From a bacterium (GTDB lineage: Bacteria; SZUA-79; Acidulodesulfobacterales; Acidulodesulfobacteraceae): a DNA stretch of 60,643 nucleotides. The stretch's first letter is position 1. Each line of letters begins with the position of its first letter. Both the position numbers and the translations under genes were made by a program. Location of the stretch: NCBI GenBank assembly GCA_021825865.1, contig JAKAFU010000009.1:1-60643 (forward strand), written 5' to 3'. The notes below the pieces were generated by a model. The model did no database searches. It was given only the letters and a program-made list of their open reading frames with translations, and was not told the DNA's origin. This document shows, one piece after another, positions 8,410 to 57,628 of this stretch.

Positions 8410-8958
8410 TTATTCAAAATCTTTAAATATTTTGGCAATCTGATTTATATCGGAAACTTTATCGCTATGCATCTTTAATTTTCCTTTTTCAATCATCTTT
8501 GGCGCAAGGAACATATCTCTAAAAAGATGTTTAGTCTTCAGCTTATATTTCCCGACTAATTCAAGCTCAAAAATTCTGCCGTTAGATTTAACATTGTCCA
8601 GAAAAACCTCATGAAAAGTTTGAACTTCTTTTTCAGTTTTTGATTCTATACCTCTGTTAACGGCAATCTCGCGCAGCACATCCATTATGCCCGCCACTTC
8701 AAAACCTTTAGGACATCTTGTGGAACATGTATTGCAAGAAACACACAGCCATATAGTTTTAGAATTTAGAACCCTGTCTGCCATGCCTAGTTCCGTCATT
8801 TTAATAATCTGATTCGGCGTAAAGTCCATTTCAAAATTTACAGGGCATCCCGCAGAGCATTTTCCGCATTGATAACATTTTGCAAGCTTATCATGCAGTT
8901 TAGATTCTACTTCTCTTGCAAAATTTCTTCTTTCCTGTTCATTTATAACTGTTTTCAT
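8410..8958 (-). CDS. hdrC: Heterodisulfide reductase subunit C
   Basis: 182 residues with two ferredoxin motifs, CYQCGKCSAGCPV (about 33-45) and CVSCNTCSTRCPKG, followed by the FEVAGIMDVLREIA helix typical of HdrC. It carries electrons from HdrA to HdrB. It is the first gene of the seven-gene leftward hdrCBA-flxDCBA operon. A striking 38-base inverted repeat lies 36 bases before its start codon, suggesting that the operon is controlled there. Confidence 0.93.
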   Translation of the reverse strand: MKTVINEQERRNFAREVESKLHDKLAKCYQCGKCSAGCPVNFEMDFTPNQIIKMTELGMADRVLNSKTIWLCVSCNTCSTRCPKGFEVAGIMDVLREIAVNRGIESKTEKEVQTFHEVFLDNVKSNGRIFELELVGKYKLKTKHLFRDMFLAPKMIEKGKLKMHSDKVSDINQIAKIFKDFE

Positions 8959-16578: not shown

Positions 16579-16642
16579 TTGTTTACCTGAATATTTTATC
16601 TGTACAATAAACGTTCATTTATCTTTATTATTTAAATTTGTT

Positions 16643-32699: not shown

Positions 32700-33590
32700 T
32701 TATTTTAATTTATTTTGTTTAATCTTAGACATTACCGCCCTGAAAGAAATATTATGTCTTGAAAAACCCATTTCTGCATAGCTGCCGCCAAGCGCAACGC
32801 CTATAAGCTGCGGCAGATGCAATACAGGAAGCGATAATTTCTTATTTATATTCATAGCAGCCACGCCTTGATATGTGTCTAAACTCAGATGGCATAAAGG
32901 GCACGGCGTAACCATGACATCTGCCTTGTTTTGCTGAGCCTCATAAATAGCATTTCCTGCTAAAGAAGTGGAAGTAACCTCGTTAACAAGTATAGTCTGA
33001 AATCCGCAGCATTTAGTTCTTCTTACATAAGAAACCGGTTCGGCGCCTAAAGCCTTTATTAATTCTTCAAACCCGGAAGGATTTTCAACATCGTCAAACT
33101 TTACGACGCTGCTGGGTCTCAGTATATGACATCCGTAAAAAGGAGCAACCTTAACACCGTCTAAAGTATAGGTAACGGCTTGCTTTAGTTTATCCAATCC
33201 TATTTCATCCCTGATTATGTAAAGCAAATGCTTAACTTTGACGGTACCGCTATATTTAAGCCCTATCTTAGAAAGATAGGCATTCGTTTTTTCTAGGGAT
33301 TCGGGATTATTAATAAGTTCTTCGTTAACTTCGCTTAATGTTAAAGTACAAGTATTACATACGGTTAAAATATCATATCCCAACTTTTCAGCCAAAGCTA
33401 ATGTTCTTCCATTTATATATAATTTTAAATTATGGTCAAATCCATCTACTACGCCTCCGCCGCAACAAGACGCCTCAGGCATATCAATCAAATTGATGCC
33501 AAGTTTTTTTGCAATAAATCTTGTAGAGTTATCTAATTCTTTTCCGCTTTCCTGCGCAACGCAGCCCGGATAGTATGCGTAATTAATCAT
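32700..33590 (-). CDS. Succinate dehydrogenase/fumarate reductase CCG subunit (SdhE/SdhC-like)
   Basis: 296 residues with two CCG domains: YYPGC, ASCCGGG, CNTC, then FYGC, KCCGF, CPLC. This HdrB-like protein replaces the usual di-heme membrane anchor in the non-classical SdhABE type known from Sulfolobus and from methylmenaquinol:fumarate reductases of Campylobacterota. It overlaps the end of sdhB by eight bases, which argues for translational coupling. A short amphipathic rather than membrane-spanning association is expected. Direction of catalysis (succinate oxidation or fumarate reduction) cannot be told from sequence. Confidence 0.9.
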   Translation of the reverse strand: MINYAYYPGCVAQESGKELDNSTRFIAKKLGINLIDMPEASCCGGGVVDGFDHNLKLYINGRTLALAEKLGYDILTVCNTCTLTLSEVNEELINNPESLEKTNAYLSKIGLKYSGTVKVKHLLYIIRDEIGLDKLKQAVTYTLDGVKVAPFYGCHILRPSSVVKFDDVENPSGFEELIKALGAEPVSYVRRTKCCGFQTILVNEVTSTSLAGNAIYEAQQNKADVMVTPCPLCHLSLDTYQGVAAMNINKKLSLPVLHLPQLIGVALGGSYAEMGFSRHNISFRAVMSKIKQNKLK

Positions 33591-34581
33591 GTTTTTCCTC
33601 CAGATTTAAGTCTTTAAAGGCCACTCTAATATCTTCCATATCTTTTATAAGTTTAAGTCTGAGAGGGGGCATCTTTCCTTTAAGTCCTGCGCCTATAGCA
33701 ACCGGTAAGTCGTTTAAAATGCCGGATATACCGACAGAATCCACTGCTACTTTGATTTCATCAAGTCTTCCTGTTTCCTGAATAGACCTTGCAATACCGA
33801 TAATATGTTTTGCGCCTTTAGAAAAAGTTATGGAGTTTTTAATAGCTTTTTCGTGCATTCTAACAATCACTTTAACCGGCGAAATTCCCTTCGGGCAGAA
33901 TTCCTCGCAAGCCTGACAATGAACGCAGTCAAACATTCCCGCCGATTTTGACCCGTTCACAAGCCGCGAACCGTTTTTATCATTATCTCTCGGGTCTTCG
34001 CTGTATCTGTATAATTTAGCAAGAGCGGCAGGTCCTAAATATTTTGAATTTGCTACGACGCCTCCGCATTCAGAATAGCAGCATTCACATAATATACAGT
34101 TAGGGGTATCGTTGTTTCCCGTTAAATTTTGAAACTCGGTTTTATAATATACAGGCTGTTTGATTTTTTCGCCTTCTTTTAACGCTTTAAAATCGTCGTC
34201 TATATGGTCTGTTTTCCCAAGCAGGTATGGTTTAATTTCTTTAATTTTATCAAAAAAGACTTCCTGGTCAACTATAAGGTCTCTTATTATAGGCATATTG
34301 CCGAGAGGGTCCACTTTTATGACGCCAAATTTTTCAATTTCTGCGCTTACCTGCGTTTTACACGCAAGTTTGGTAATACCGTTTATTTTCATAGCGCATG
34401 AACCGCAAATAGCGCTTCTGCATGACCTCCTGAAACTTAACGTTCCGTCAATCTCTGCTTTAACCTTCATTAACGCATTTAAAACCGTCATACCGGGAAA
34501 ATCATTAAGTACATACTCCTTGTAATATGGCTTTTCGTCAATCTCAGGATTAAATCTATAACTTTTAACTGTGAACTCCAT
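33583..34581 (-). CDS. sdhB: Succinate dehydrogenase/fumarate reductase iron-sulfur subunit
   Basis: 332 residues, longer than the usual 240-260. The [2Fe-2S] motif is CRSAICGSCAMKINGITKLAC. Cluster 2 reads CILCECCYSECGG. Cluster 3 reads CVHCQACEEFCPKG, so a cysteine stands where classical SdhB has a non-cysteine residue; a [4Fe-4S] instead of [3Fe-4S] cluster is predicted, as in the SdhABE type. The C-terminal extension (about 80 residues) is helical. It lies between sdhA and the CCG subunit gene. Confidence 0.93.
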   Translation of the reverse strand: MEFTVKSYRFNPEIDEKPYYKEYVLNDFPGMTVLNALMKVKAEIDGTLSFRRSCRSAICGSCAMKINGITKLACKTQVSAEIEKFGVIKVDPLGNMPIIRDLIVDQEVFFDKIKEIKPYLLGKTDHIDDDFKALKEGEKIKQPVYYKTEFQNLTGNNDTPNCILCECCYSECGGVVANSKYLGPAALAKLYRYSEDPRDNDKNGSRLVNGSKSAGMFDCVHCQACEEFCPKGISPVKVIVRMHEKAIKNSITFSKGAKHIIGIARSIQETGRLDEIKVAVDSVGISGILNDLPVAIGAGLKGKMPPLRLKLIKDMEDIRVAFKDLNLEEKHD

Positions 34582-34696
34582 TATTTGCGACTCCTTAAGC
34601 TATAATCTCCGATTAGTATCTGTGTTATGATATTGGATAACGCAAGTTATGTTTACGTATCCGTAATTTTTTACAACTTGAATTTTTTATAACCTG

Positions 34697-36370
34697 TTAA
34701 TACGTTCTCGGCTGCGGTTTGAACTTTGTAATTGTTACCGGACTAAAATCAAAATCAATTCCGCCGCTTGCATTTAATTTTGCTATTGTATGTTTTAACC
34801 ATTTATCATCGTCTCTTTCCGGAAAATCATTTCTATAATGGGCTCCTCTAGACTCCTGCCTCATTATAGCGCCTCTGGCTATAATTTCTGCTATAAGCAA
34901 TATATTTTTAAATTCGAATGCTTCGACAATATCCGTATTAAAAAGATGCGATTTATCGTCAACTCCGATATTTTTTGCGCGTTCTTTAAGCTCTTCTATC
35001 TTTTCTATGGCTTTTTTCATAAGGGATTCTTCTCTGAACACGCCGACGTTCTTGCGCATATCTTCCTGCAGCTCCGCTTTAAGCAAACCGTGTCTTTCCT
35101 TACCCGCTGATTTCTTAATGTTTTCGAATATCTCTTCGTCCCTTCTGACCGCAGATTCGTCAAACTTGCCAAAATCAACATTTTTAATGTACTCCGCCAT
35201 ATCTATTCCTGCCCGCCGTCCGAAAACTATCGTATCCAGAAGCGAATTTCCGCCTAATCTGTTTGCTCCGTGAACGCTGACGCAGGCAGATTCCCCTGCA
35301 GAATAAAAACCTTCCACCGTAGTTCTGCCGTTGTTATCTGTTTTAATACCTCCCATAGAATAGTGAACCCCGGGTCTTATAGGTATCGGCTCGTAAATAG
35401 GATTAACTCCTTCAAAATCAATTGAAAGCTGCATAATTTGCGGCAATTTTTCCATTATTTTTTCTTTTCCCAGATGACGAACGTCAAGCAAGATAGCTCC
35501 GTCAATGCCTCTTCCTTCATTAATTTCAGTCTGTTCGGCTCTTGCCACGACATCACGCGGGGCTAATTCCATCGCTTTCGGAGCATATTTAGACATAAAT
35601 CTGACTCCAAGCGAATTTAAAAGATAAGCGCCTTCGCCCCTTGCTCCTTCCGTAACAAGAATACCTGTGCTCTTAAGAGTCGTAGGATGGAACTGGACAA
35701 ATTCCATGTCCATAAGGGGAACATCTGCCCTGATAGCAACCGACATACCGTCACCGGTATTTATTAACGCGTTTGTATTGGAAGAATATACCTGACCATA
35801 CCCGCCGGTTGCAAATAAAACAGACTTTGCGGCAATGCCGTGAAACCTTCCCTCTCTTATATCATAAGCCACCACTCCGCTTATTTTTCCATTATCGACA
35901 ACTAAACTTGTGACAAAATATTCATATAAAATTTTCGTATTATATTTAAGAACATTATCAAACAATCCGTGGAGCATCATATGCCCTACAGCATCGGCAT
36001 AATAGCATGACCTGGGGAAACTTTGCCCTCCGAACGGTCTCTGGGCAATACCGCCTTTATCATTTCTGTTAAATACTACCCCCATTTTTTGTAATTCAAG
36101 TATATTGCCCGGGGCTTCGCTCGTTAATATTTCAATCGCGTCCTGGTCGCCAATATAGTCGCTGCCTTTAACGGTGTCAAAAAAATGCGACTCCCACGAA
36201 TCATTTTCGTCAAAAGCGGCATTAACCCCGCCCTGAGCAGCACCGGAGTGCGACCTTGTAGGATATACTTTACTTACTATTACTGCATCTACGCCTCTTT
36301 TTCTGAGTTCGACGCATGCTCTCAGCCCTGCAAGTCCCGCACCAACTATAATAACATCATGTTTTAGCAT
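34697..36370 (-). CDS. sdhA: Succinate dehydrogenase/fumarate reductase flavoprotein
   Basis: 557 residues. The FAD-binding start is VIIVGAGLAGLRACVEL, the flavin-attachment histidine region is SHSGAAQGGVNAA, and substrate residues appear in QFHPTT, RPGVHYSMGGI and HGANRLGGNSLLD. First gene of sdhA-sdhB-CCG-phasin-like. GAGGA lies just before the start codon. Length and motifs are those of a normal SdhA/FrdA. Confidence 0.95.
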   Translation of the reverse strand: MLKHDVIIVGAGLAGLRACVELRKRGVDAVIVSKVYPTRSHSGAAQGGVNAAFDENDSWESHFFDTVKGSDYIGDQDAIEILTSEAPGNILELQKMGVVFNRNDKGGIAQRPFGGQSFPRSCYYADAVGHMMLHGLFDNVLKYNTKILYEYFVTSLVVDNGKISGVVAYDIREGRFHGIAAKSVLFATGGYGQVYSSNTNALINTGDGMSVAIRADVPLMDMEFVQFHPTTLKSTGILVTEGARGEGAYLLNSLGVRFMSKYAPKAMELAPRDVVARAEQTEINEGRGIDGAILLDVRHLGKEKIMEKLPQIMQLSIDFEGVNPIYEPIPIRPGVHYSMGGIKTDNNGRTTVEGFYSAGESACVSVHGANRLGGNSLLDTIVFGRRAGIDMAEYIKNVDFGKFDESAVRRDEEIFENIKKSAGKERHGLLKAELQEDMRKNVGVFREESLMKKAIEKIEELKERAKNIGVDDKSHLFNTDIVEAFEFKNILLIAEIIARGAIMRQESRGAHYRNDFPERDDDKWLKHTIAKLNASGGIDFDFSPVTITKFKPQPRTY

Positions 36371-43920: not shown

Positions 43921-44523
43921 TTATTTTCCTGTTTTTTCCATCTTATCTTTAATAAACTTCTCTAAAAAAATAGCTATTTTATCAGGTTGATTTATATTAA
44001 TCTGGGGTATTTTCAAATTGTTTATCGTAACATCTCCGCAAACTAATATACAATTTGCATCGTCTGTATATTTTAAACGCAATTCAGGATTTAATTCCTT
44101 TCTGAAAAGCTCAACTTTAGGAATCGTAATATCTCTGAAACCTTCTACTATTAAAATGTCAGCGTCATTAAAAAATTTATTAATTAAATTATCTATCATG
44201 TTAATATTATTAATATTGCTGTCATCGCCGGCGTCATCAGATGCGCAGCAGTCAGGCGCATCATTTTTTTTAATATCGCTAAAAAAAGCCATGGAATTGT
44301 CGGATAAAAGCATAGTGGAAAACGCTCCCGCATGTTTATGCCGCCATGAGTCTTTTCCTTTTATATCCGCTTCAAATTTATGGTCGGTATGTTTTATAGA
44401 AGAAACTCTGTAATTTTTTTCAGCGAATATATGTATCAGTTTTTCTATAAGGGTTGTTTTTCCTGTTCCTGATTTTGCAAGAAATGAAACTGCGAAAGGC
44501 TTGCAAACTGAATTATTTTTCAT
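43921..44523 (-). CDS. mobB: Molybdopterin-guanine dinucleotide biosynthesis protein MobB
   Basis: 200 residues. The P-loop SFLAKSGTGKTTLIEKLI, SSIKHTDHKFEAD, DSWRHKHAGA and ILIVEGFRD define MobB. This small GTPase assists insertion of guanylated molybdenum cofactor. An acidic Asn/Asp insert (DDAGDDSNINNINM) lies near residue 95. It belongs with mobA and moeA upstream in the same direction. Confidence 0.92.
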   Translation of the reverse strand: MKNNSVCKPFAVSFLAKSGTGKTTLIEKLIHIFAEKNYRVSSIKHTDHKFEADIKGKDSWRHKHAGAFSTMLLSDNSMAFFSDIKKNDAPDCCASDDAGDDSNINNINMIDNLINKFFNDADILIVEGFRDITIPKVELFRKELNPELRLKYTDDANCILVCGDVTINNLKIPQININQPDKIAIFLEKFIKDKMEKTGK

Positions 44524-46036: not shown

Positions 46037-47365
46037 TTATCTCCAGTTAGACCTTGAAAACTGGGGAAGGTCCTCAAAATCGCCTCTTATGGCATAGCCT
46101 TCATTGATGTTATATACTTCAAACTCGTTATCTATAACAAACGAGTATATATTGCCTTTTAAGAATTCATCTTTATATTTCAAACATTTTTCTCCCTGCC
46201 TTATTATAGCGGATAATATGCCCGCTCCTGCAACATCGCCTAAAAGTATTGCTCCTACAAGGACCTGACCGTCATAAACTAATTTTCTATAAATAGATTC
46301 GCCTTCCTGATGAATAAATACGGTTTGCGAAGGATCGTTGGGGTTAGTAAGCCCTATGGTTATAATAGGCAGTCCGTATATCTCAACAGAATTAAGCCCC
46401 ATGCCGCCGTAATATTCTCTGTATATTCCAGCCATATTTGTACCGGCAACCCTTCCTTGTTCGCAGGCAAGAGGAACTATAGCTATTATGTTAGGTTTTT
46501 TATTTAAAATATCGTATGATACTATAGCGTCGCCGCCGGCGTATACATCTTTAATATTGGTCATCATAGTTTTATCTACTATTATTCCTCTATCAATTGT
46601 AATACCGCTGCCTTCAAGAAAGCCTACGTTCGGTCTGACGCCTATTGCCACAATAACAATATCTGCAACAAGCTCCCTGCCGCTTTTCATCATAACGCTC
46701 GTAGGATTGCCTGCCTCGTCTACGTTAATTTTGGTAACGGTGTCGTTAGTAGCCGTGTCAATGCCGTTTTCGTTCAGTTTTTTTGCAGTTATGCCGCCTG
46801 ATATTTCATCAAGGGCCAAACCTAAAACACGCGGAAGGAGTTCTGCGATAGTAACGTGCATATCAAGAGCCCTCAAACCTTCCGATGCTTTCAGACCTAT
46901 CAATCCGCCGCCTATAACTATAGCCTCTTTATGTTTAGCTAATTTTGCGCCTCTTTCCATTTTTTTTGCATCATCAAATTTAGTAAAAGTTCCCATCATA
47001 GGAGATTCGGCGTTAAATCCCTCTATTGGCGGCACAAACGGGACGCCCCCCGGTCCAATAAATAATTTATCGTATTCAATGGACTTATTGTCGTCCAGCA
47101 CTATTTTTTTATCTGCCGTATTTACCGATACAACCCTTTTTCCGAATAATGTTTTATAATTATTTTTTTCGTAATAATCATCATCTTTATACCATATAGT
47201 TTCGTCTGTTGTTTTGCCTTCCAGATAATATGAAATCAAAGGTCTTGCATATGCCTTATATGATTCGTCGGATATTATCGTAATCTCTCCAGTTTTATCA
47301 AATCTTCTTATTGCATCGGCGCATGAAAGACCCGCATAAGAATTACCGATTATTGCATATCTCAT
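46037..47365 (-). CDS. FAD/NAD(P)-dependent oxidoreductase (NirB-N/rubredoxin-reductase-like)
   Basis: 442 residues. FAD-binding IIGNSYAGLSCADAIRR (4-20), NAD-binding IVIGGGLIGLKASEGL, and the second FAD motif DVYAGGDAIVS are intact. A family C-terminal domain follows. AAGGGG precedes the ATG. Proteins of this type accompany CooF-like ferredoxins in carbon monoxide dehydrogenase and aldehyde oxidoreductase clusters, passing electrons to NAD(P). Here the CooF-like gene lies immediately upstream, so the pair probably connects the molybdoenzyme locus to NAD(P)H. No CODH catalytic gene is in the window. Confidence 0.88.
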   Translation of the reverse strand: MRYAIIGNSYAGLSCADAIRRFDKTGEITIISDESYKAYARPLISYYLEGKTTDETIWYKDDDYYEKNNYKTLFGKRVVSVNTADKKIVLDDNKSIEYDKLFIGPGGVPFVPPIEGFNAESPMMGTFTKFDDAKKMERGAKLAKHKEAIVIGGGLIGLKASEGLRALDMHVTIAELLPRVLGLALDEISGGITAKKLNENGIDTATNDTVTKINVDEAGNPTSVMMKSGRELVADIVIVAIGVRPNVGFLEGSGITIDRGIIVDKTMMTNIKDVYAGGDAIVSYDILNKKPNIIAIVPLACEQGRVAGTNMAGIYREYYGGMGLNSVEIYGLPIITIGLTNPNDPSQTVFIHQEGESIYRKLVYDGQVLVGAILLGDVAGAGILSAIIRQGEKCLKYKDEFLKGNIYSFVIDNEFEVYNINEGYAIRGDFEDLPQFSRSNWR

Positions 47366-47579
47366 TTTTATCCCCTTCTTCGTAATTTATATTAATTTGA
47401 CAAACAATATATAAATAAAATAATACATGAGTTTCAATAGATAATACGTAAAAATGTAAAATAGCGCTAATTTAATTTCTTTATTCTGTTTCTGTCATAT
47501 TTCACGGCATGCAATTTATATTGATTTTATAACGAATAACTGCTCGATTTAAATACCGTCTTGCTTTACTTGTTCTTTT

Positions 47580-48161
47580 TTAGCGATTATTATTCTTATA
47601 GCGATTATAATTAATTTTTAAATGGGGTCCGTATAATTTATTTGCAATCATTAACCTTCTTTCATACGAATAATTTTTAATGCCTATTTTCTTTAAAGCT
47701 CCTTTTTTACACGCTTCTACGCATTTTGGTGTTTCTTCATCAATGCACCCGTCGCATTTTGAAGCATAGTGGTCTTTGCCGACCCGTTCTATTGCGCCAA
47801 ACGGACAAACCATGACACACATCCAACATCCTACACATTTTTTGTAATTTGTCAAAGTCCAGCCATTTTCAATATCTCTATATCTTGCGCCTGGCATACA
47901 TGCGTCAACGCACGGTGCTTCTTCGCAATTATGGCATAAAATAGGAAAAAATTTATTTCCTTTAGATTTTATATTAATTCTTGCAGTGTTATACTTTCCG
48001 TATTTTTCCTTCATATGAGTTTCGCAGGCTTGTACGCATGATTTATACTCCTGCCCTTCGCATCCGTCACATTTTGCAGGATAAAGCATTATTTCTATCT
48101 GATTTTTTTTAAGGTCCTCTTTAAGGTTTGTAAGTTTTATACTCTTCATATTGTTTTCCAT
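47580..48161 (-). CDS. CooF/HycB-like ferredoxin with four 4Fe-4S motifs
   Basis: 193 residues. Cysteine groups: CDGCEGQEYKSCVQAC, CHNCEEAPCVDACMPG, CVGCWMCVMVCPFG and CDGCIDEETPKCVEAC. This is the layout of CooF/HycB/DmsB electron-transfer subunits. GGAG lies upstream of the start. It sits between mobA and the FAD/NAD oxidoreductase and is the likely electron partner of the latter. Confidence 0.9.
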   Translation of the reverse strand: MENNMKSIKLTNLKEDLKKNQIEIMLYPAKCDGCEGQEYKSCVQACETHMKEKYGKYNTARINIKSKGNKFFPILCHNCEEAPCVDACMPGARYRDIENGWTLTNYKKCVGCWMCVMVCPFGAIERVGKDHYASKCDGCIDEETPKCVEACKKGALKKIGIKNYSYERRLMIANKLYGPHLKINYNRYKNNNR

Positions 48162-48188
48162 TGCAATGTCTCCAGAAATATAATTTTA

Positions 48189-49577
48189 TTATAATTTTTT
48201 GTAAAAATTTATAGCTTTTTGAATTTTAGCTGCCATAAAAAATAAATTTTTATTTAGATAAAATTTTTTTTCTCTGTTTAAGTAAAAGATAAGTTTTTTT
48301 AAATATATTTTAGCGTTATTATTTTCGTTATAATTATTTATATTGTTGTTATCGTCGTTATAATGAGCATAATTATTGCTAATATTTCTACTATTATTAA
48401 TATTATTTTTACTTTTACTGTAAAGTTTTAAATAATATAATTGATTAGCTAAATAACCGTAAGGCTTGGCTAATTTGCCGCTATGTACGCCTTCCGTTCT
48501 ATTTCTTTTTTTATCATAGTTCAGTTTATCTGATAATCCAAAAAAATTATTTCTTTTAACCGCGATTATGCTTTTTTTATATTCAGTATCTTTATCATTA
48601 TATTCTGATTTACTGTTGCCAAAATCGGCGCCGTTATTAATTCTATTAATTTCACCGCCGGCGACATTGTCGCAATTTATTTTTTTCAGAATACTAGTTA
48701 AACTGTCTTTATCGTTTATATTGCGAAAGCATTCAGATTTTATCTGATTATTTTCTCTAATTATATCATTTATATGAAAATAATAAACCCTGCCGATAAA
48801 TCTTGCAATATTTATTGCATCGTTATAAATAAAGTCGTCATAATTTGCCAAATTTAAAGCATAACTGTTAAGCATTGACAGAATGTCTAACGTTTTTTTT
48901 CTATTATAGCACGCAAGAAGCGGCTCTATTGTAGAATCTGACCACATCGGCATTACAGCGTCGAAATTTTTATAACTGCTGCCTTCGCCCTTTTGTATTT
49001 TATTTATTAAAATATTAGCACAGTCAAAATTAAAAAAAGGAGCGTCGCATTCTAACAATAATACATAATCATTTTTGAGATAATTAAAACAGCTGAAGAT
49101 GCCTTTTAACGGTCCTGCTAATCTGCTATTTTTGTCATCGGCATCGGCTATTATCTTGAAATTTAAATATTTGTTATTGTTATGCTGATTATCCACATCA
49201 GCTTGTATATTTTTATTTTTTGAATCTTTTTTTGTTTTACCGCAATTATGGTCGATATTACCGTCTATTTTATAATTATCAAGTTGTATTTCGACCCTGA
49301 TTTCAATCAATCTCTTTTTATAACTAATGTTTGATTTGCAATTTATTGCAAAATTTGAATTGTTATAAATTTTGTTTAAAATCGTGATTAACGCATATCG
49401 AAATTCATCTAAATTATCTATATCCCTTACGGAAATTATAATATCGTCTGCGACTTTCAGAGCTGTTTCCAAAACCCTTTCAAAAATTGTTCGCCCGTCA
49501 AATACATAAAGGGCTTTATTTTCTCCGAATCTTTTTGACTGTCCTCCCGCCAATATTAAACAGCTTATATTGTCCAT
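48189..49577 (-). CDS. mobA: Molybdenum cofactor guanylyltransferase with long C-terminal extension
   Basis: 462 residues, more than twice the usual 190-210. The N-terminal domain has LILAGGQSKRFGENKALY, RLAGPLKGIFSCF and LLLECDAPFF, all MobA motifs, split by an Asn/Lys-rich insert (about 85-135). After about residue 265 comes a long Asn/Tyr/Lys-rich tail with runs such as NNNINNYNENNN and a final helical FYLNREKKFYLNKNLFFMAAK region. It makes the bis-MGD form used by DMSO-reductase-family enzymes such as the one encoded upstream. It starts seven bases after the PTPS-like gene. Confidence 0.88.
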   Translation of the reverse strand: MDNISCLILAGGQSKRFGENKALYVFDGRTIFERVLETALKVADDIIISVRDIDNLDEFRYALITILNKIYNNSNFAINCKSNISYKKRLIEIRVEIQLDNYKIDGNIDHNCGKTKKDSKNKNIQADVDNQHNNNKYLNFKIIADADDKNSRLAGPLKGIFSCFNYLKNDYVLLLECDAPFFNFDCANILINKIQKGEGSSYKNFDAVMPMWSDSTIEPLLACYNRKKTLDILSMLNSYALNLANYDDFIYNDAINIARFIGRVYYFHINDIIRENNQIKSECFRNINDKDSLTSILKKINCDNVAGGEINRINNGADFGNSKSEYNDKDTEYKKSIIAVKRNNFFGLSDKLNYDKKRNRTEGVHSGKLAKPYGYLANQLYYLKLYSKSKNNINNSRNISNNYAHYNDDNNNINNYNENNNAKIYLKKLIFYLNREKKFYLNKNLFFMAAKIQKAINFYKKL

Positions 49578-49584
49578 TAATTAT

Positions 49585-50073
49585 TTATCTTAAATTTTTT
49601 TTAATTTTTCCTCTCTGTCCGTGACCTTCGCTTAAAACAACTTCTATATAATTAAGCGATGCAAATGCGTCGTCATTTTTAATATCTATAATCAGCTGGT
49701 CAATACAATAAACCGCAAGGTCTTCTATGTTTAAAGACGGAATATTCACTCTGAATATATCAGATTTTGGAATCAGGTAATATTTATTATTAATTTCTAT
49801 ATTATAATGCGTTTGTTTGTCTGTAATTTTTTGAATTGTTTCAGGATAATCCGCCAATAATATTTTGTCCTCAAAAGTTGAACATAATCTGGCTATTATA
49901 GCTTTTAGATTATACAGGTGAACAATTCTTCTTTTATCATCAAATTCACCGTCCACAGCTACGTCTATGTAATGAAAATGCGGATGAATTCTTGAGCAGT
50001 CCCCTCTTCCCGGAACAATATGCATACATTCAAATGTTAATCCTGCTTCCCTTCCTAATAATTCGACTATCAT
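49585..50073 (-). CDS. 6-pyruvoyl-tetrahydropterin synthase (QueD/PTPS) family protein in a Moco operon
   Basis: 162 residues. The zinc site is recognisable: FECMH (H18) and C-x3-H-x-H in CSRIHPH (C26, H30, H32). The fold continues with HLYNLKAIIARLCSTFEDKILL and PSLNIEDLAVYCIDQL, matching the second half of PTPS/QueD. The family's usual Asp-His pair before the KxL helix (LDH) reads FED here, so the catalytic histidine seems replaced. Family enzymes rearrange dihydroneopterin triphosphate. Placement between a MoaA-like gene and mobA suggests a pterin-related step near molybdopterin synthesis. This is inference. Confidence 0.8.
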   Translation of the reverse strand: MIVELLGREAGLTFECMHIVPGRGDCSRIHPHFHYIDVAVDGEFDDKRRIVHLYNLKAIIARLCSTFEDKILLADYPETIQKITDKQTHYNIEINNKYYLIPKSDIFRVNIPSLNIEDLAVYCIDQLIIDIKNDDAFASLNYIEVVLSEGHGQRGKIKKNLR

Positions 50074-50172
50074 AAAACCATCCCTTTTTAATATGTCTAT
50101 ATATATTTTGTATTTGCATATGAGTTGTATTTATATATATCTTATATGCTTATGTTTAACAATTAATTAATA

Positions 50173-51030
50173 CTAATAATTAAAATCGGTCAACTGCCCG
50201 TCCGGAAGCATCCTGAGCCCTGAGCATCTTCCGTTTGACGATAGGCAAACGTCTTTAATGCTGCGGCAAAGGGTTATATTTATCCCTTTATATCTAATTA
50301 TTTTTCTGTCATTATATTTGTCTATATTAAAATCAAGTCCTATTTTTTTTAAAACGCTTACCGGCTCGGCGTAATATTTTTTGTAAACGTTTAAATTTCC
50401 CGTCTCTGATAATTCTATAAATTGCAGATTAAAATTATTTGAACTGCAGAAATCAATTATTTTAAGCATATCTTTTTTATTAGTATTTATTGATTTAAGC
50501 AGAACGGAATCTATTTCTATATTAAAATTTTTTTCGCGTAAGGCTTCTAATCCCTTTATAACTTTACTATAATAATTTTTTCCTGTGAGCAGCCTATATT
50601 TTTCTTCATCAAGCGTATCTAAGCTTATTGAAATTTTTTTCACAAGCGACGGACTTATTTCATCGATTCTTTTGTTGATTAAAGTTCCGTTAGTAGTTAT
50701 ATATATATCTATATCGCCTATTTGTTTTATAGCGTAAATAAGCTGTTTTATTTTTTTATAGAGAAAAGGCTCTCCGCCGGTCAATTTTACTTTTTTAAGA
50801 CCAAATTCCTTTAATGAATAAATCGTGCTGATAATATTTTCAATTTCAAGGCTATGTTTTGAAGATTTAGAAATTCCTTCGTTATGGCAATATAGACAGT
50901 CTTCATTGCATTCTCCGGTCAAAGAAATTCTTAACGAATTAATCGTAAATTCCTTATCTGCGTCATAATAATCCAATTCTGCGCCGACAGGGAACGCTCC
51001 TTCGTAATAATTAAACAAATAATTTTTCAT
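50173..51030 (-). CDS. MoaA-like radical SAM protein, shortened C-terminus
   Basis: 285 residues against 320-340 for MoaA. The radical SAM motif C41-x3-C45-x2-C48 lies in GECNEDCLYCHNEG; KLTGGEPFLYK, ITTNGTLI and ISLDTLDEEKY follow, all MoaA-type. The C-terminus has LCRSIKDVCLSSNGRCSGLRMLPDGQL and stops seven residues later. The canonical C-x2-C-x13-C cluster is rearranged, its last cysteine is missing and there is no terminal GG. Either a divergent GTP 3',8-cyclase or a relative acting on another pterin. It lies in the moeA-moaA-PTPS-mobA run. Confidence 0.82.
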   Translation of the reverse strand: MKNYLFNYYEGAFPVGAELDYYDADKEFTINSLRISLTGECNEDCLYCHNEGISKSSKHSLEIENIISTIYSLKEFGLKKVKLTGGEPFLYKKIKQLIYAIKQIGDIDIYITTNGTLINKRIDEISPSLVKKISISLDTLDEEKYRLLTGKNYYSKVIKGLEALREKNFNIEIDSVLLKSINTNKKDMLKIIDFCSSNNFNLQFIELSETGNLNVYKKYYAEPVSVLKKIGLDFNIDKYNDRKIIRYKGINITLCRSIKDVCLSSNGRCSGLRMLPDGQLTDFNY

Positions 51031-51143
51031 ATTTTAGATTTAAGTCAAAATTAAAATAAATGCATTACAATCAAATTAATTGACACGCTCCATATTACCG
51101 AAACAAAACAAAGAACTTAAAAGACATACTCGTAATCTGTTAG

Positions 51144-52439
51144 TTAAAAAACATTATAATCATTTAAGGTCACCGTGACCTCTTCGCCGGCATGCATAAC
51201 CACAGTTTCCTCGTCCATCGCAAAACTTCCGTTTGCCTTAATCAGCGGCGAAAGCGACCTTGCCGCGGATGGCGGTTTTGGGGGCTGTATAATGGAAGCT
51301 GTTAATTTGCCGTTTCCCTCTTTAGCTATTTTAACCTGAAAATATTTCCGAACGCCTTTTTCTGAAGCGGCCTCTTCTTTTAATATTGCTTTAATTTCAG
51401 GGTATCTTTTATAAATATTATTTATACCGGTCATTTTTTGAATGAACGGTCTTACGAATAAATCAAAAGTTATTATAACAGAATACGGCCATCCGGCTAA
51501 AGCAAAAATGGGCGTATTATTATTAAGCAATCCAAATGAAGTAGGTTTTCCGGGAACAAGATTTAAGCCGTGAAAATATAATTTTCCGGCTTTGCCGATA
51601 GCAGACGGTATCAAATCGTAAAAATTTGTAATTTCTTTGTTATCAAGAACTAAAAAACTTGCGCCTGTTCCGCCGGTTGAAATAAGTAGATTATATTTTT
51701 CGGATTTATCTGCCGATATGAGGGCATTCGTTATGCTTTCTGCATTATCCTCCACCACGCCTATAACTTCCGGAACCCCCCCGGCATCTTTTATCAATGC
51801 TTTTAAAGCGGTAGTATTAATATCATATATTTTATTGTTTTTTAATTCATCCCCTGGCTGTATAAGCTCATTACCCCCGGATAAAATTCCGATAACCGGT
51901 TTTTTAAAAACCGATATATTTTTATATCCAATTCCTGCCAGAGCCGCTATGTCGCATAGTCTAATTTTATCGCCTTTAGAAAACAGCTTTTTACCTGATT
52001 GAATATCATCGCCCACAGGAGAAAGATATGACCCGGACTCAACTTTTTTATCGTATGACACATAACCGCCCGAATAATCTAATGTATCTTCAATTAATAT
52101 AACTGAATCTGCCCCTGGAGGAACCGGCGCGCCCGTCGTAACAAACGCTGCCTCACCGTGATGTATTTCGTTAAGCACATTGTTAAATCCGGCAGTTATC
52201 TGCTGCACAACTTTTAATTTTGTAATTTTATTTTCTGAAAAATCACCGGCTATAACGGCGAAACCGTCAACGGCAGACCTGACAAAAGGCGGAATATCAA
52301 CTTTCGGAATGACATCATTCGACAGAACCCTGTCTAAACTGTCCTCAACAGGTACTTCTTCTTTATCGGTTATTTTTCGTATGTATTGAGCCGTCAGTTC
52401 CAGCAGGTCTGAAGCTTGTTTTTTATTTTTATCGCTCAT
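51144..52439 (-). CDS. moeA: Molybdopterin molybdenumtransferase MoeA
   Basis: 431 residues. VDIPPFVRSAVDGFAV, TTGAPVPPGADSVI, GILSGGNEL, LISTGGTGAS and LVPGKPTSFG are MoeA landmarks in order. It inserts molybdate (or tungstate) into adenylated molybdopterin. It lies between the ACT-like small gene and the MoaA-like gene, downstream of the molybdoenzyme, in the same direction. Confidence 0.95.
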   Translation of the reverse strand: MSDKNKKQASDLLELTAQYIRKITDKEEVPVEDSLDRVLSNDVIPKVDIPPFVRSAVDGFAVIAGDFSENKITKLKVVQQITAGFNNVLNEIHHGEAAFVTTGAPVPPGADSVILIEDTLDYSGGYVSYDKKVESGSYLSPVGDDIQSGKKLFSKGDKIRLCDIAALAGIGYKNISVFKKPVIGILSGGNELIQPGDELKNNKIYDINTTALKALIKDAGGVPEVIGVVEDNAESITNALISADKSEKYNLLISTGGTGASFLVLDNKEITNFYDLIPSAIGKAGKLYFHGLNLVPGKPTSFGLLNNNTPIFALAGWPYSVIITFDLFVRPFIQKMTGINNIYKRYPEIKAILKEEAASEKGVRKYFQVKIAKEGNGKLTASIIQPPKPPSAARSLSPLIKANGSFAMDEETVVMHAGEEVTVTLNDYNVF

Positions 52440-52650
52440 ATTTTGGACATAAATTAAGTTATAATCTTCTTTAATTAAAAAGCCGGCGTATTATCGCTTC
52501 TATAATTTATTATAGATATTATAACGACGCCGGTCTAAAATTTATTGATATAATAAATATTTTCCATTTTACATTCACTATCTTGCCAAATGAAACTTCT
52601 AGAGTGAACAGTTAAAATGAAAAGAAAATAAGCAAAATAAATAAGCAAAA

Positions 52651-52896
52651 TTAAAAATAAGGCTCTACAGGATACATTTTGATACCTGCACCTTCTAATA
52701 TTTTCTTGGCATTTGCTTCATCCTCAAGATTTACGAAGATAGTTGCATGATAAGGCGTGATGCTGGCAACATTTCTTCCTACAATCGCAATTTTTGATTT
52801 TTTTAAAGTATCTTCTGCTTTATCAAAATCTCCATTGTTGTAGTCAACTCTGATAGGCGCATTGTATATAGTTCCGACTGAACTTAACTTTGCCAT
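52651..52896 (-). CDS. Small ACT-like (ferredoxin-fold) protein of unknown function
   Basis: 81 residues, preceded by GGAGG, so it is translated. No cysteine. The predicted order is strand (TIYNAPIRVDY), helix (FDKAEDTLKKS), strand (KIAIVGRN), strand (YHATIFVNLE), helix (ANAKKILEGAG) and strand (IKMYPVEPY), the beta-alpha-beta-beta-alpha-beta of ACT-like domains. I recognise no named family. Its position between the ferredoxin subunit and moeA suggests that it serves the molybdoenzyme, as a chaperone, a regulator or a subunit. Confidence 0.8.
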   Translation of the reverse strand: MAKLSSVGTIYNAPIRVDYNNGDFDKAEDTLKKSKIAIVGRNVASITPYHATIFVNLEDEANAKKILEGAGIKMYPVEPYF

Positions 52897-53023
52897 ATTT
52901 TATCAATCCTCCGTATTAAATAAATATTATTAAATAAATTTAAATAAATATTTGCTATATATATTTATTGTATATTACTCAATTTATATATAGCAAATTA
53001 TAATTTATTCTTAATAAATCAAA

Positions 53024-53677
53024 TCATCCTACTTTAGAACTGTTATCGTTGTCTTCGACAGAAGAAGTACCCTGTGTTGAATGCGGCAAATCAAATCCGA
53101 AGAAGTGTTCCGTCATTTTACGCGCGGTTTTTTCTCTGTCAATTGTTGAAATTCTATTTATATTGCCGAACCAAAGCGCATCCGTAGAACAGAGAGTAAC
53201 GCATGCAGGCAGCAAACCTTCGTCTATTCTGTGTCTGCAATAATCGCATTTTGTAACTTTTCCTGTCGCATCGTTAAACTGTGGCGAACCGAAAGGACAT
53301 GCATGTATGCATGATTTACATCCTATACATGTAGTCGGGTCGTTAAAGACTATGCCGTCCGTTCTTTTTTGCATTGAACCCGTAGGACAGGCTTTAACGC
53401 AGGCTGCATCATCACAATGAAAACAATTCATAGGTAAATATACTGTTTTAAGCTGACCTTTCTTTACAAAATACGGTCCAACCTGTATAACTCTCATTCT
53501 TCTCGGTCCAACCGGAAGATTATGCTCTTTTTTGCAGGATACTTCGCAGGACATACACCCTATACATCTATCAATATTAACCTTCATAGAATATTTAGGG
53601 TTTGAAGATTTAAGAGTTATTCTTGCAGCTCTTTCTTCTCCAAGATGAAATCTGTCAAATCCATATTCAGATGACAT
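53024..53677 (-). CDS. DmsB/PsrB-like four-cluster ferredoxin subunit
   Basis: 217 residues. Motifs: CIGCMSCEVSCKKEH, CFHCDDAACVKACPTG, CIGCKSCIHACPFG and CDYCRHRIDEGLLPACVTLC. This is the standard four-[4Fe-4S] electron-transfer subunit of DMSO-reductase-family enzymes. It follows the catalytic gene after 444 bases. No NrfD-like or other membrane subunit follows, unlike in Psr, Phs or Dms operons, so the electrons probably go to soluble partners. Confidence 0.92.
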   Translation of the reverse strand: MSSEYGFDRFHLGEERAARITLKSSNPKYSMKVNIDRCIGCMSCEVSCKKEHNLPVGPRRMRVIQVGPYFVKKGQLKTVYLPMNCFHCDDAACVKACPTGSMQKRTDGIVFNDPTTCIGCKSCIHACPFGSPQFNDATGKVTKCDYCRHRIDEGLLPACVTLCSTDALWFGNINRISTIDREKTARKMTEHFFGFDLPHSTQGTSSVEDNDNSSKVG

Positions 53678-54121
53678 ATTTGACTCCTTTATAATATAAT
53701 TATTAAAATTATTTTTATATTTATGTATCGTATATCGTTATGTATTGCATAGTTAGAATATACGTAAAATATACACAAATAAATTAAATTTAATGTTTGA
53801 CTATTTTTGTCTTTTCTTATTATTTTTTCTTATTAAACCTTTCTTATTATTTCCTTACTTCTTATACATCATTGTACATCGCCTCATTAAAGATTTAAAA
53901 TTTGACAATAAGGGCATCGCCAATTATATTATCCATTTATTTATACCATTATACGGTACCCTTATTGTCAACGAACAATCCCTGCAGATGCAATTTAAAT
54001 AAAGTTTAACCTTTAGACTGACTGCTGCTATTGATAAGCAATTAAAATTTAATTGACCTAATAATTATAAAAAATTATTTAATTAATAATATAATTATTT
54101 ATCAACATTTGTTAATATTTA
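53678..54121. other. 444-base spacer between molybdoenzyme and ferredoxin genes
   Basis: No convincing gene. A 69-codon frame at 53793-54002 on the plus strand is hydrophobic but has no ribosome binding site and points against the operon. The notable content is the inverted repeat at 53902-53971, listed separately. Confidence 0.5.
53902..53971. repeat. 13-bp perfect inverted repeat around a 44-base centre
   Basis: TTGACAATAAGGG (53902-53914) is the exact reverse complement of CCCTTATTGTCAA (53959-53971). The 70-base unit lies inside the operon spacer. It could be a mini mobile element, an RNA hairpin that sets the ratio of the catalytic gene to downstream genes, or a regulator site. Confidence 0.85.
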
Positions 54122-56668
54122 TTAGTATTTTCTCGTATCGCATGAAACAGGCGTGCACTCTACCGGTTCCTTAAAATTAACTAATTTTTTCCATCCGATA
54201 CTCAATTCGTGATATTCTTTCCAGTGGTTTTTCCACTTACCGACAATAACATCTTTATCCTGATGTTTCGGGTCCCAGACCTCAGGAAATTTTTTCTGTA
54301 AAAATTCAACTACTTTTTTTGCCGTTCCTTCGGGATCTTCATCGCCTTTTCTGTACACTCTGCACAGGATAGCTTTAAATTGAATCTGACCGTAAACAGG
54401 GTCCTTTATAATATCATCGATAACGGTATTAATTGACTCATACGGATGAAAAGGTTGATATCTATCGAAACCAAAATTAGCCCAAATTCCGTCTTCAGGG
54501 ACCATTTCGGTAACCCATGCCGGACCTTCAACCCAGCCTCTGTCATTTTCAACTATTACCATATCCCCGTCTTCAATACCCATAACGGCAGCAGTAGCCG
54601 GATTTATTTCGATATTTCTATCCGGTTCCAACTCATCGTTCCATGGCCACCAATGACCGCCTTCATGAAATGATTGAGCAATTCTGGTAGTATTTAAAAT
54701 AAGCGGATATTTTTTTGCCCTTTCAAAATTTCCTAATGGAGATTCCGAACCTTCAACCTGGGTAGGAACTTTGTACCAGCCGATCTTCTCCAGAGGTTCC
54801 GAAGCAAGTTCAATTTTACCGGAAGGAGTAGGAAATCTTTTGTCTGATTCAGGGTAATTTTCACCTTCTTTATACATTATCCATTTTCCGCGAAGAACGG
54901 CTTCATCGTCCTGAAAAACTGCTTCTTCTTTAGAAAATACAGGCCACATAAGTCCGCCTTTGGGATTTTTCTCAGGATTCAGAACATCATATTTTATGCC
55001 TCTGGTAAAAGGTTCCTGGTCATTAAAGAAATCAGTCATATGTATTTCATTAACCCTGCCTTTGTCGGGGCCGTCTTCATAATAACCCCACGGATTGAAT
55101 TCAACTTCGTTAAAATGACCGACGCCGGCATTTTTTAATCTTTTCGCAATACCGTCAAATACGTCTATGTCTGCCCGATGTTCGTGCTGATAAGGGATTA
55201 TCTTGTTATGCCATTGTATAAGCCTATTATTGCCGTGATGACAAACGCTGTCGGTTTCAACGGATATAGCAATAGGAAATGCTACATGACTGAACATGTA
55301 GGTATGATTCGGATATATAGAAAGATGCACATTAATCATATTTCTTTTCATTGCTTCTTCCATTTTCCACGAGTTCGGAAACTGGGGGAGATGGTCTCCG
55401 TTCCAGATAATACCTTTCACCGGATACGGTTTTTCATACATCATAGCATTTATAATACACGGAACTGAACTATCACCCCATGAAATCAATTTGTCGGTAA
55501 TTTGAGGTCTTTTCGGCAACGGAATATCATGCAGGTCATTCCCGTAATTTAGCGGAGGACGGCAGTTATGAAGCCAATTCCAGCCGCCGCCTTTCACCCC
55601 GATAGAACCGGTTAAGGCAAGAAGAGCCGCAATAGACCTGTTGACATTGTTTGAATTATAAATCTGGGCTGTTCCTAAATTTCCGGTAACGGAAGCAGGT
55701 CTGGCCATACCGAATCTTCTTGCTGCTTCAATTATTGTTTCCTTTGGAATATAAGTAAGTTTTTCAGCACGTTCAGGAGACCATTTCGCGCATTCTTTAG
55801 CATATTCCTCAAAACCTGTTACCCATTTATCGACAAATTCTTTATTATAAAGTTTTTCTTGAATTATTATATTTCCCATAGCAAGAAATAATATCGCATC
55901 TGAGCCTGAGCGGATTCTCATGCCTATATCGCATTTTGAAAGTGTTGCGTTGAAACGCGGGTCTACGCCTATTAAAAAAGCCCCGTTATCGCGTGCATCA
56001 AGAAGATGAGTCATTGTAATGGTTTCTTGCGCAGCCATATTTGTTCCTACAAGCAGAATACATTTTGAATTTTTCCAGTCCTGTGAAGGATTCATAAGTC
56101 TTCCGAGACCTTTTGCCCCAAATACGTAATTCATTGACACACCGGGGCTTTCGCAGCATATAGGACCTTGACCGTAAACATTTGGAGTGCCGAATATTTT
56201 GCCAAATCTTGCAGCTCCTTCTTTGTTGCCGAAAGACGACCTGCCTGTTCTAAAAATAGCAAGAGCTTCAGGTCCCTGTTCGTTATAGAGTTTAATAAGC
56301 CGTTCAGCCGTAAAATCAAGAGCGTCATCCCACGACACGCGTTTGAAATCATCGGTCAAAGACTTTCTCATGTACGGATAGTTTACTCTTAACGGGTCAT
56401 ACCACCACTGAATCTGACCGACACCTTTAGAACAAAGACCTCCTCTATTCTGAGGATGTTCAGAATCGCCCATTACATCAACAATTCTGCCATTTTTTAA
56501 AAATATTTTGAGACCGCATCCGCTTTCACACATATTTGTGCATGTGGAATAACGAACAGTGTCATGCTCTTTGGAAGATTCCTGCGGACGGTGGTCAGGC
56601 TTTATTTTTATAAGTCTGTTATCTTTCACCCTCAAGAATCTTTCTTTGCCTAATTCATCAAAATCCAT
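54122..56668 (-). CDS. DMSO-reductase-family molybdopterin oxidoreductase, catalytic subunit
   Basis: 848 residues from the ATG at 56666-56668; the earlier in-frame ATG (56680) overlaps the binding site GGAGGG. The [4Fe-4S] motif is C43-x3-C47-x3-C51-x27-C79 (CTNMCESGC ... GLCSKG). A molybdenum ligand candidate is one of C171/C172 in GPICCESPG. LLVGTNMAAQE, GGWNWLH and the C-terminal cofactor domain (RIAQSFHEGGHWWPW; INPATAAVMGIEDGD) fit the thiosulfate/polysulfide/arsenate reductase branch. There is no twin-arginine signal, so a cytoplasmic enzyme is predicted. Substrate unknown. Upstream is a CCG gene, downstream its ferredoxin subunit. Confidence 0.92.
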   Translation of the reverse strand: MDFDELGKERFLRVKDNRLIKIKPDHRPQESSKEHDTVRYSTCTNMCESGCGLKIFLKNGRIVDVMGDSEHPQNRGGLCSKGVGQIQWWYDPLRVNYPYMRKSLTDDFKRVSWDDALDFTAERLIKLYNEQGPEALAIFRTGRSSFGNKEGAARFGKIFGTPNVYGQGPICCESPGVSMNYVFGAKGLGRLMNPSQDWKNSKCILLVGTNMAAQETITMTHLLDARDNGAFLIGVDPRFNATLSKCDIGMRIRSGSDAILFLAMGNIIIQEKLYNKEFVDKWVTGFEEYAKECAKWSPERAEKLTYIPKETIIEAARRFGMARPASVTGNLGTAQIYNSNNVNRSIAALLALTGSIGVKGGGWNWLHNCRPPLNYGNDLHDIPLPKRPQITDKLISWGDSSVPCIINAMMYEKPYPVKGIIWNGDHLPQFPNSWKMEEAMKRNMINVHLSIYPNHTYMFSHVAFPIAISVETDSVCHHGNNRLIQWHNKIIPYQHEHRADIDVFDGIAKRLKNAGVGHFNEVEFNPWGYYEDGPDKGRVNEIHMTDFFNDQEPFTRGIKYDVLNPEKNPKGGLMWPVFSKEEAVFQDDEAVLRGKWIMYKEGENYPESDKRFPTPSGKIELASEPLEKIGWYKVPTQVEGSESPLGNFERAKKYPLILNTTRIAQSFHEGGHWWPWNDELEPDRNIEINPATAAVMGIEDGDMVIVENDRGWVEGPAWVTEMVPEDGIWANFGFDRYQPFHPYESINTVIDDIIKDPVYGQIQFKAILCRVYRKGDEDPEGTAKKVVEFLQKKFPEVWDPKHQDKDVIVGKWKNHWKEYHELSIGWKKLVNFKEPVECTPVSCDTRKY

Positions 56669-56710
56669 GTTGCCCTCCATATTATTAATTAATTAACAGT
56701 AAAAATAAAA

Positions 56711-57628
56711 TTAAATGGCGGTTTCTGAATATAAATTAAACGCATAATTTGCATATTCGCCAAGTTCAATCTCTAAACCTGCCAAGTATCCTATAAGCTC
56801 TTCAAAACCGACCATTGGCGCAAATGATTCTAAATCGGACATATCAACGGCATTAACCAAATTTTGTTGACACATGGAACATATTGTTAAAATATAATCT
56901 GAATCGGTTTCATTAGCTTTTTGATTTATTGACTTGAAAAATTCATTTAAACTATTTGCGCTTTCTATTCTTTTATTCCTCAACGGAGTGACATTTTGTT
57001 GTTTCTCGCCGCCGCAGCACTCTGAATACAAAGACACTCTCGCGCCCAGATTTTCTAAGAATTTTGTTAATTGAAGCATATTTTCACGATTATCGTAACA
57101 ACCTGTATAGAGTAATATAGAATGACCTTTTAAATTTTTAACTGCTTTCTTTAAAAAATTTTCTGCGGTTTTATTTTCAACCGCAATCCCGCCGAAATCA
57201 CTTGTTTCTGCATTTGTTTCATTAAGACCGAATAGCAAATCCAGAATATGTTTTGCTCCGGTTTTATCAATATCCGTATCGGACAGAACAGCGTTAAACG
57301 GCCGAAGACTGTAATCTATCTGATTCTTATACATAGAATTTTTATCAACGGTATCGAGAGCTTTATTTATGGATTTACTGCATACCTGACATCCGGTATA
57401 TAAATACTTAGCTCCTTTGCTCTGCGCCAATCCCATATTTCGAAGCGGCATAACGACTTTATTGAAAAATTTATGGTCATAATAACCCGGGGCTGCGCCG
57501 CAGCAATTCCATTCTTCGAGAAGTTCTGCCTCTATATCTAGAAATTCGAAGATTTTATAAAGGTTCTTATTTTTCGCTTTTATATTATTTGACTCCACGC
57601 ATCCGGGGTAATATAATATTTTTTTCAA
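56711..57628 (-). CDS. HdrB-like protein with two CCG domains, partner of the molybdoenzyme
   Basis: 305 residues, starting at a TTG (57626-57628) with GCAGGT upstream. Both CCG domains are complete: YYPGC (C10), NCCGAA (42-43), GCQVC; then YTGC, ECCGGE, CSMC. The protein resembles HdrB and GlpC/SdhE-type subunits and could hold one or two non-cubane clusters for thiol/disulfide or quinone chemistry. It is the first gene before the molybdoenzyme (42 bases), which is an unusual pairing without hdrA or hdrC in the same operon. Confidence 0.87.
   Translation of the reverse strand: MKKILYYPGCVESNNIKAKNKNLYKIFEFLDIEAELLEEWNCCGAAPGYYDHKFFNKVVMPLRNMGLAQSKGAKYLYTGCQVCSKSINKALDTVDKNSMYKNQIDYSLRPFNAVLSDTDIDKTGAKHILDLLFGLNETNAETSDFGGIAVENKTAENFLKKAVKNLKGHSILLYTGCYDNRENMLQLTKFLENLGARVSLYSECCGGEKQQNVTPLRNKRIESANSLNEFFKSINQKANETDSDYILTICSMCQQNLVNAVDMSDLESFAPMVGFEELIGYLAGLEIELGEYANYAFNLYSETAI

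Follow-up and report, generated by a model that had tools for sequence, protein, structure and literature searches.

Several described redox systems resemble parts of the locus reported here. Polysulfide reductase (PsrABC) has an NrfD-type membrane anchor. Hydrogen-dependent CO2 reductase (HDCR) includes a hydrogenase but lacks an NAD(H) subunit, the formate dehydrogenase-HdrABC complexes of methanogens contain HdrA, which serves flavin bifurcation, along with HdrC, and phenylglyoxylate dehydrogenase (Pad) is a 2-oxoacid:acceptor oxidoreductase without molybdenum or tungsten. In the Aromatoleum enzyme AorABC, electrons pass from the tungsten site to AorA, then to FAD and on to NAD (PMC10413684). 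Here we analyse a stretch of 60,643 nt from a member of the Acidulodesulfobacterales, hereafter the window, in which an operon of ten genes, all on the minus strand, occupies positions 46037-57628. In our judgement the product of the operon is probably a single cytoplasmic oxidoreductase, linked to NAD(H) and containing molybdenum (or tungsten), with genes for its cofactor included in the operon. A literature search, whose coverage left out most subscription papers, returned no paper describing this gene set. Read 5′ to 3′, the genes are:

56711..57628 (-), CCG (HdrB/SdhE-type) protein, with PF02754 in two stretches
54122..56680 (-), catalytic subunit of the dimethyl sulfoxide (DMSO) reductase family, binding Mo/W-bis(pyranopterin guanine dinucleotide) (bisPGD); PF00384, PF01568, PF04879
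53024..53677 (-), DmsB-type ferredoxin subunit, 16 Cys, four [4Fe-4S] clusters expected; PF13247
52651..52896 (-), 81-residue protein with a predicted ACT fold
51144..52439 (-), MoeA paralogue of the molybdenum insertase family; PF03453/PF00994
50173..51030 (-), MoaA-like radical SAM protein without the C-terminal GG motif; PF04055
49585..50073 (-), PTPS/QueD-superfamily protein; PF01242
48189..49577 (-), MobA-like nucleotidyltransferase with a long Asn-rich region; PF12804
47580..48161 (-), AorA/PadI/HycB-type ferredoxin, 16 Cys, four [4Fe-4S] clusters expected; PF13247
46037..47365 (-), AorC/PadH-type FAD/NAD(H) oxidoreductase; PF07992

All ten genes keep the same order and strand in each of 22 long loci, which come from 17 Acidulodesulfobacterales genomes with enough contig and five Sulfobacillus-like Bacillota. 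This excludes chance grouping and supports conservation of the operon as a unit. Within the family, the catalytic gene was found at 89-99% identity in 25 of the 30 genomes searched (one copy is split over two contigs), and in each of the 24 unsplit copies it sits between the CCG gene and the DmsB-type ferredoxin gene. In G021 and G020, which gave no catalytic match, either the other operon genes were found at the end of a contig or an AorC-like gene of 82% identity was present. The catalytic subunits of the Sulfobacillus-like Bacillota are 61-63% identical to that of the window, and a relative at 54% is found in another phylum (G312), on a short contig that ends before the upstream gene. Median identities to the window within the family are 92% for the catalytic subunit, 91% for the DmsB-type ferredoxin (89-100% across the family), about 80% for the NAD(H) pair, 65% for MoeA, 52% for the MoaA-like protein and 50% for the CCG protein. 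As a yardstick, the comparison of G008 with the window gives 88% and 78% for two segments of SdhA and 77% for SdhE; set beside these, the catalytic subunit is conserved like a core enzyme and the CCG protein of the operon is fast-changing. We rejected the view that conservation of the catalytic subunit stands far above that of everything else, since SdhA comes close to it.

A second line of evidence comes from two draft genomes in which genes are jointly absent. In G025 (99% complete, 6% contamination) the moeA, moaA-like, ptps and mobA genes stay in place (L133, G025:C34, 4113-8388), but the CCG, catalytic, ferredoxin and ACT genes are missing to one side of them and the AorA/AorC-like genes to the other. 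In neither gap was a remnant of the six enzyme genes found. Elsewhere in G025 no catalytic or AorC-like copy was found, and the best CCG matches are about 30% identical, like HdrB/SdhE paralogues. In G008 (99% complete) no catalytic, AorC-like, orthologous CCG or MoeA gene was found. G025 is missing two blocks of genes and has retained those in between, which is good evidence for a joint function of the six enzyme genes and points to a different role of the cofactor genes in that organism.

The initial annotation had named these ten leftward genes and remarked that no membrane anchor was among them, and both statements stand. The open reading frames lie where it had placed them on the minus strand, and Pfam and NCBIfam agree on their identities, except for the 81-residue protein, which has no significant Pfam match. 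No anchor was found among the ten genes by Pfam or hydropathy, nor in the other long loci with the same ten genes; 19-residue windows above 1.6 occur only in the FAD/NAD protein and MoeA, both from soluble families. The catalytic subunit has no Arg-Arg pair within its first 45 residues, and the N-termini of ten relatives are likewise without a Tat motif. Intergenic gaps run from 7 to 444 bp, which makes a single transcript plausible, and the AT-rich DNA holds many promoter-like matches.

By its domains the catalytic subunit falls in the DMSO reductase superfamily (PF00384, 109.7 bits; PF01568, 68.6; PF04879, 50.6; all over cut-off), and it carries these domains only, with no AOR-family catalytic domain. 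Its predicted fold matches Nap, Fdh and acetylene hydratase (Z 38.0 to 2nap, 663 residues aligned, root-mean-square deviation (rmsd) 2.3), and residues C47/C51/C55/C83 form an N-terminal [4Fe-4S] motif. In a tree of 46 sequences, with E. coli FdhF, FdnG, NapA, NarG and DmsA and plasmid PhsA as references and TtrA, ArrA, AioA, SoeA/SreA and acetylene hydratase not included, 22 members group into a single clade, fully supported and set on a long stem (0.85). The clade spans both Bacteria and Archaea: Acidulodesulfobacterales, Bacillota, Nitrospirota, Chloroflexota, Actinomycetota, Altiarchaeales and Hydrothermarchaeota. It lies near, yet outside, the Fdh/Nap group; its nearest neighbours are uncharacterised proteins, and the six references are placed elsewhere. 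The possibility that the subunit belongs firmly within a known enzyme, which the initial annotation had named as the outcome that would overturn its proposal, is thus not borne out among the enzymes tested, and the family models agree. No NCBIfam equivalog model reaches its cut-off (Fdh-alpha, 258 bits against 666; PhsA, 217 against 694; ArrA, 91 against 1600). Profile searches put HDCR FdhF first among PDB sequences (E 4e-90), followed by the polysulfide reductase 2vpw; PDB members among tetrathionate and arsenate reductases, arsenite oxidase, SoeA/SreA and acetylene hydratase match no better than Fdh and Psr. On sequence grounds, then, the catalytic subunit belongs to an uncharacterised clade of the DMSO-reductase family. 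Setting the enzyme apart from NrfD-anchored relatives, as had been done, is valid for known enzymes, but other members of the clade showed no NrfD-type neighbour either.

The clade is marked by the signatures GQGP[IL]C[CT]ESPG, GGGWNWLHNCRP, HHGxNR and FHE..HWWPW. C175, which lies in the first of these, is invariant in all 22 members, aligns with the Cys of 2vpw in a profile alignment and is the probable metal ligand. C176, the candidate in a first HMMER alignment, is disfavoured, as the wider alignment has Cys or Thr at that position and C175 is invariant. The residue after the ligand Cys, a His in Fdh, is thus Cys or Thr here, and the position of the Fdh Arg is not conserved as Arg; a plain formate dehydrogenase was therefore rejected.

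The last two genes of the operon encode the better-supported half of the coupling that the initial annotation had proposed. The FAD/NAD protein matches AorC (8c0z_E) over residues 1-403 to 1-403 with E 6e-49, ahead of all other PDB proteins, and scores 278 bits against the PadH model, under its cut-off of 475. It has three Cys only, and an acidic residue (TIAE) comes after GGGLIG, the second of its Rossmann motifs; these features would fit electron transfer with NAD(H) and not disulfide chemistry. The PDB matches of the second ferredoxin are 9mqx, HycB of HDCR and 8c0z_C (AorA, E 3e-10). The pair had been labelled a CooF-like ferredoxin with an FAD/NAD oxidoreductase; it is present, but AorC/AorA and PadH/PadI match it better than a generic CooF pair. 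The catalytic-ferredoxin-ACT core recurs in Nitrospirota, Altiarchaeales and Actinomycetota loci, and AorA/AorC-like genes accompany the catalytic gene in Altiarchaeales and in several Nitrospirota and Actinomycetota loci too. It is this linkage in further lineages, which the CCG gene does not share, that favours the NAD(H) branch. In Hydrothermarchaeum, genes for an AFOR-family tungsten enzyme and a PadI-like ferredoxin lie 3.6 kb upstream of the catalytic gene (L105, 4007-6357).

We propose that a small soluble substrate would react at the Cys-ligated Mo/W-bisPGD centre in two-electron chemistry, and that electrons would travel from the metal to the N-terminal cluster, the DmsB-type ferredoxin, the AorA/PadI-type ferredoxin and the FAD of the AorC/PadH-type subunit, where hydride would be exchanged with NAD(H). 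If Aor and Pad are a guide, oxidation of the substrate to yield NADH is the likelier direction. Three points weigh against this proposal. Complex formation and the electron path, which we infer along with direction, substrate and metal, rest on gene linkage and homology. Archaeal members of the clade have no adjacent CCG gene, and most have no nearby AorA/AorC pair, which indicates that electron partners vary between lineages. Finally, the presence of dsrA does not match that of the operon, which weakens a link to sulfate reduction. No dsrA match was found in the window's genome (G000) or in four congeners (G001, G003, G004 and G005), all of which have the operon, although most of the family has dsrA; conversely, G008 and G025 have dsrA and are without the enzyme genes. 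Since dsrA does not follow the operon, we rejected that link.

Neighbouring genes give some guidance on metal and substrate. MOT1 molybdate transporter genes adjoin or lie near the catalytic gene in one Bacillota genome, two Chloroflexota genomes and an archaeon (L076), where MOT1 comes after a TauE/SafE-family gene. TauE/SafE-family exporter genes adjoin or lie near the catalytic gene in the same archaeon (14653-16815) and in a Gaiellales locus (L104, 5364-6614). These neighbours favour molybdenum and hint weakly at sulfur compounds. The likeliest class of substrate is, tentatively, that of sulfur oxyanions or organosulfur compounds. Other molybdoenzymes of the family have been described in Sulfobacillus as tetrathionate reductase-like and SoeABC-like (PMC4378227), and the parts searched of the paper describing the Acidulodesulfobacterales (PMC6776010) do not mention such an operon.

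Other loci of the clade have further neighbours. In four Nitrospirota loci (L077, L078, L081 and L098) the ACT gene is followed by one for a protein of 750-805 residues, with a VWA domain in the L078 copy, and in most of them a TorD-type chaperone gene comes next; the arrangement suggests that the large protein is a dedicated maturation factor. Downstream of the catalytic gene, archaeal loci encode a B12-binding and radical SAM protein (L086, 15102-17234; L096, 6298-8502; L105, 17269-19527), its domains being read from the L086 copy.

The CCG protein is the most equivocal component of the operon. Its gene is the first, 30 bp from the catalytic gene, and this holds in the Acidulodesulfobacterales and in the Sulfobacillus-like lineage. 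Both CCG motifs are complete (C10, C42, C43, C80, C83; C177, C204, C205, C250, C253), the protein has no other Cys, and all ten are invariant across the family, Sulfobacillus, HdrB and SdhE sequences. The CCG gene adjoins the catalytic gene in those two lineages only: archaeal, Nitrospirota, Chloroflexota and Actinomycetota relatives have no adjacent CCG gene. In three Nitrospirota loci (L079, L082 and L087) HdrA- and HdrB-type genes lie divergently upstream. The CCG protein therefore looks like a lineage-specific addition, constant in family and Sulfobacillus-like loci. The CCG proteins of the two lineages are 24-26% identical to each other, no more than to HdrB, so that their orthology rests on gene position. 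In our proposal the protein would give these lineages a second port for electrons, built on two non-cubane clusters, whose partner may be a thiol, disulfide or persulfide, or a quinone through peripheral contact.

Disulfide coupling is thus one of two comparable options for this protein. It may be a catalytic, HdrB-like subunit through which the Mo/W reaction and NAD(H) are coupled to a protein or small-molecule disulfide or persulfide, a possible but doubtful role. The complete motifs with their ten invariant Cys, and the leading position of the gene beside the catalytic gene in both lineages, agree with it. CCG proteins serve quinone-linked enzymes too, however, and the best curated match is SdhE at 46 bits (cut-off 500), ahead of HdrB at 37 bits, both far under cut-off; no HdrA or HdrC gene is among the operon's ten, and the protein has a median identity of 50%, against 77% for SdhE, besides lacking adjacency in other lineages. 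The other option, which we hold just as tentatively, is that the CCG protein replaces the missing NrfD anchor, docking the enzyme to the membrane in the manner of SdhE and passing electrons to or from menaquinone. SdhE, its closest curated model, is the anchor of methylmenaquinol:fumarate reductase, and the same organism has an SdhAB-SdhE-type succinate dehydrogenase/fumarate reductase, in which a CCG protein stands in for a membrane subunit (window 32700-36370). The SdhE match is weak, however, and the NAD(H) module already provides an electron sink.

The operon's MoeA and MoaA-like proteins are, by sequence comparison, extra paralogues. The window's genome has a second MoeA (G000:C29, 32% identity to the operon MoeA) and, elsewhere, a second, canonical MoaA with a C-terminal GG motif. 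Compared with E. coli MoaA and this other MoaA, the operon's MoaA-like protein has no GG motif and is missing most of the C-terminal cluster cysteines, as are the Sulfobacillus copies, so it is probably not the organism's GTP cyclase. A PTPS-like gene is also present in the Sulfobacillus operon, and the MoaA-like and PTPS-like proteins may together tailor a pterin. Downstream of the Hydrothermarchaeum catalytic gene (L105) lies another GG-less MoaA-like gene. The MobA-like protein has 462 residues, including its Asn-rich stretch, against about 320 in relatives of another genus. Similar Asn-rich low-complexity stretches occur, besides MobA (48189-49577), in two large helicase/nuclease-like proteins (9136-12936, 13039-16578) and a RimO-type radical SAM protein (16643-18118). 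A gene for a MobB-like protein, 43921..44523 (-), lies close by, at varying positions, in most of the long family loci and is probably a cofactor accessory gene outside the fixed ten.

The AlphaFold model of the 81-residue protein (pLDDT 76) resembles the ACT domain of TyrA (VIA Z 9.1, 73 residues aligned, rmsd 2.4; Foldseek E 6e-3). Its gene adjoins that of the ferredoxin both here and in the majority of bacterial relatives, with homologues in other phyla, and the product may be a small regulatory or assembly subunit. Small archaeal proteins encoded between two ferredoxin genes were considered as ACT homologues and rejected: their position fits, but identity is 8-17% and there is no common motif.

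The initial annotation had brought these parts together as a soluble enzyme coupling a Mo/W reaction to a disulfide or persulfide and to NAD(P)H. The soluble enzyme, the NAD(H) module, with its AorC/AorA homology and recurrence in several lineages, and the dedicated cofactor genes all stand; the disulfide half is weakened by the restriction of the CCG link to two lineages and by the SdhE match. In its fullest form, a three-way soluble molybdoenzyme would join the Mo/W reaction to NAD(H) through the AorA/AorC-type branch and to a thiol, disulfide or persulfide at HdrB-type clusters, with a cofactor tailored by the GG-less MoaA-like and PTPS-like proteins, and this combination we regard as rather unlikely. 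It is less likely still that the ten genes are a historical cluster, in which general molybdoenzyme cofactor genes came to lie beside an unrelated redox enzyme. G025, which keeps the cofactor genes without the enzyme and in which they probably serve something else, would fit such a history, but the identical order in 22 of 22 loci from two phyla and the joint absence of the other six genes from G025 argue against it. A divergent formate dehydrogenase or CO2 reductase, with ferredoxins and an NAD(H) subunit as in known Fdh complexes, is very unlikely: HDCR FdhF is the top PDB sequence match, the fold is of the Nap/Fdh type and the clade lies near the Fdh/Nap group, but the Fdh His is replaced, the Arg is not conserved, and the genome has a separate formate dehydrogenase over the curated cut-off (L124, 824 bits against 666).

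A single NAD(H)-linked oxidoreductase with its own cofactor genes is thus the reading that we prefer. The clade is common to Bacteria and Archaea, with a fixed operon and with subunits conserved to much the same degree as a core respiratory enzyme, and our search of papers and libraries turned up no reaction assigned to it. The enzyme may be of importance for the energy metabolism of acid mine drainage bacteria. The operon also offers a test case of how unrelated Mo/W enzymes reuse the same soluble NAD(H) module and of whether MoaA and PTPS paralogues make a modified pterin cofactor.

Against the described systems, the operon shares some elements with each. FlxABCD-HdrABC is likewise a soluble complex linking NAD(H) to a CCG protein, but it has HdrA and no molybdoenzyme subunit; the window contains an FlxABCD-HdrABC-like set of its own at 810-8958 (-), with an NAD(H)/FAD protein, iron-sulfur proteins, an MvhD-type protein, HdrA, HdrB and HdrC in a row. 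The methanogen formate dehydrogenase-HdrABC complex (7bkb) also pairs a Mo/W enzyme with an HdrB-type CCG protein, whereas the operon is without HdrA and HdrC and differs in its catalytic residues. PsrABC (2vpw), the second-closest PDB sequence, shares the ligand Cys, the VFG motif that follows it and a DmsB-type ferredoxin, and differs in that the operon has no anchor. HDCR contributes the closest PDB sequence to the clade, FdhF, and its HycB-like ferredoxins match, but the catalytic His and Arg of Fdh are not conserved in the operon enzyme. The FAD/NAD protein and its ferredoxin match the PadH and PadI models of phenylglyoxylate dehydrogenase, with scores under the curated cut-offs. AorABC of Aromatoleum aromaticum (PMC10413684) has an AOR-family catalytic subunit and three subunits in all, with no CCG, ACT or second ferredoxin subunit, but it too is soluble, and its four-cluster ferredoxin and FAD/NAD subunit are homologous to the products of the operon's last two genes.

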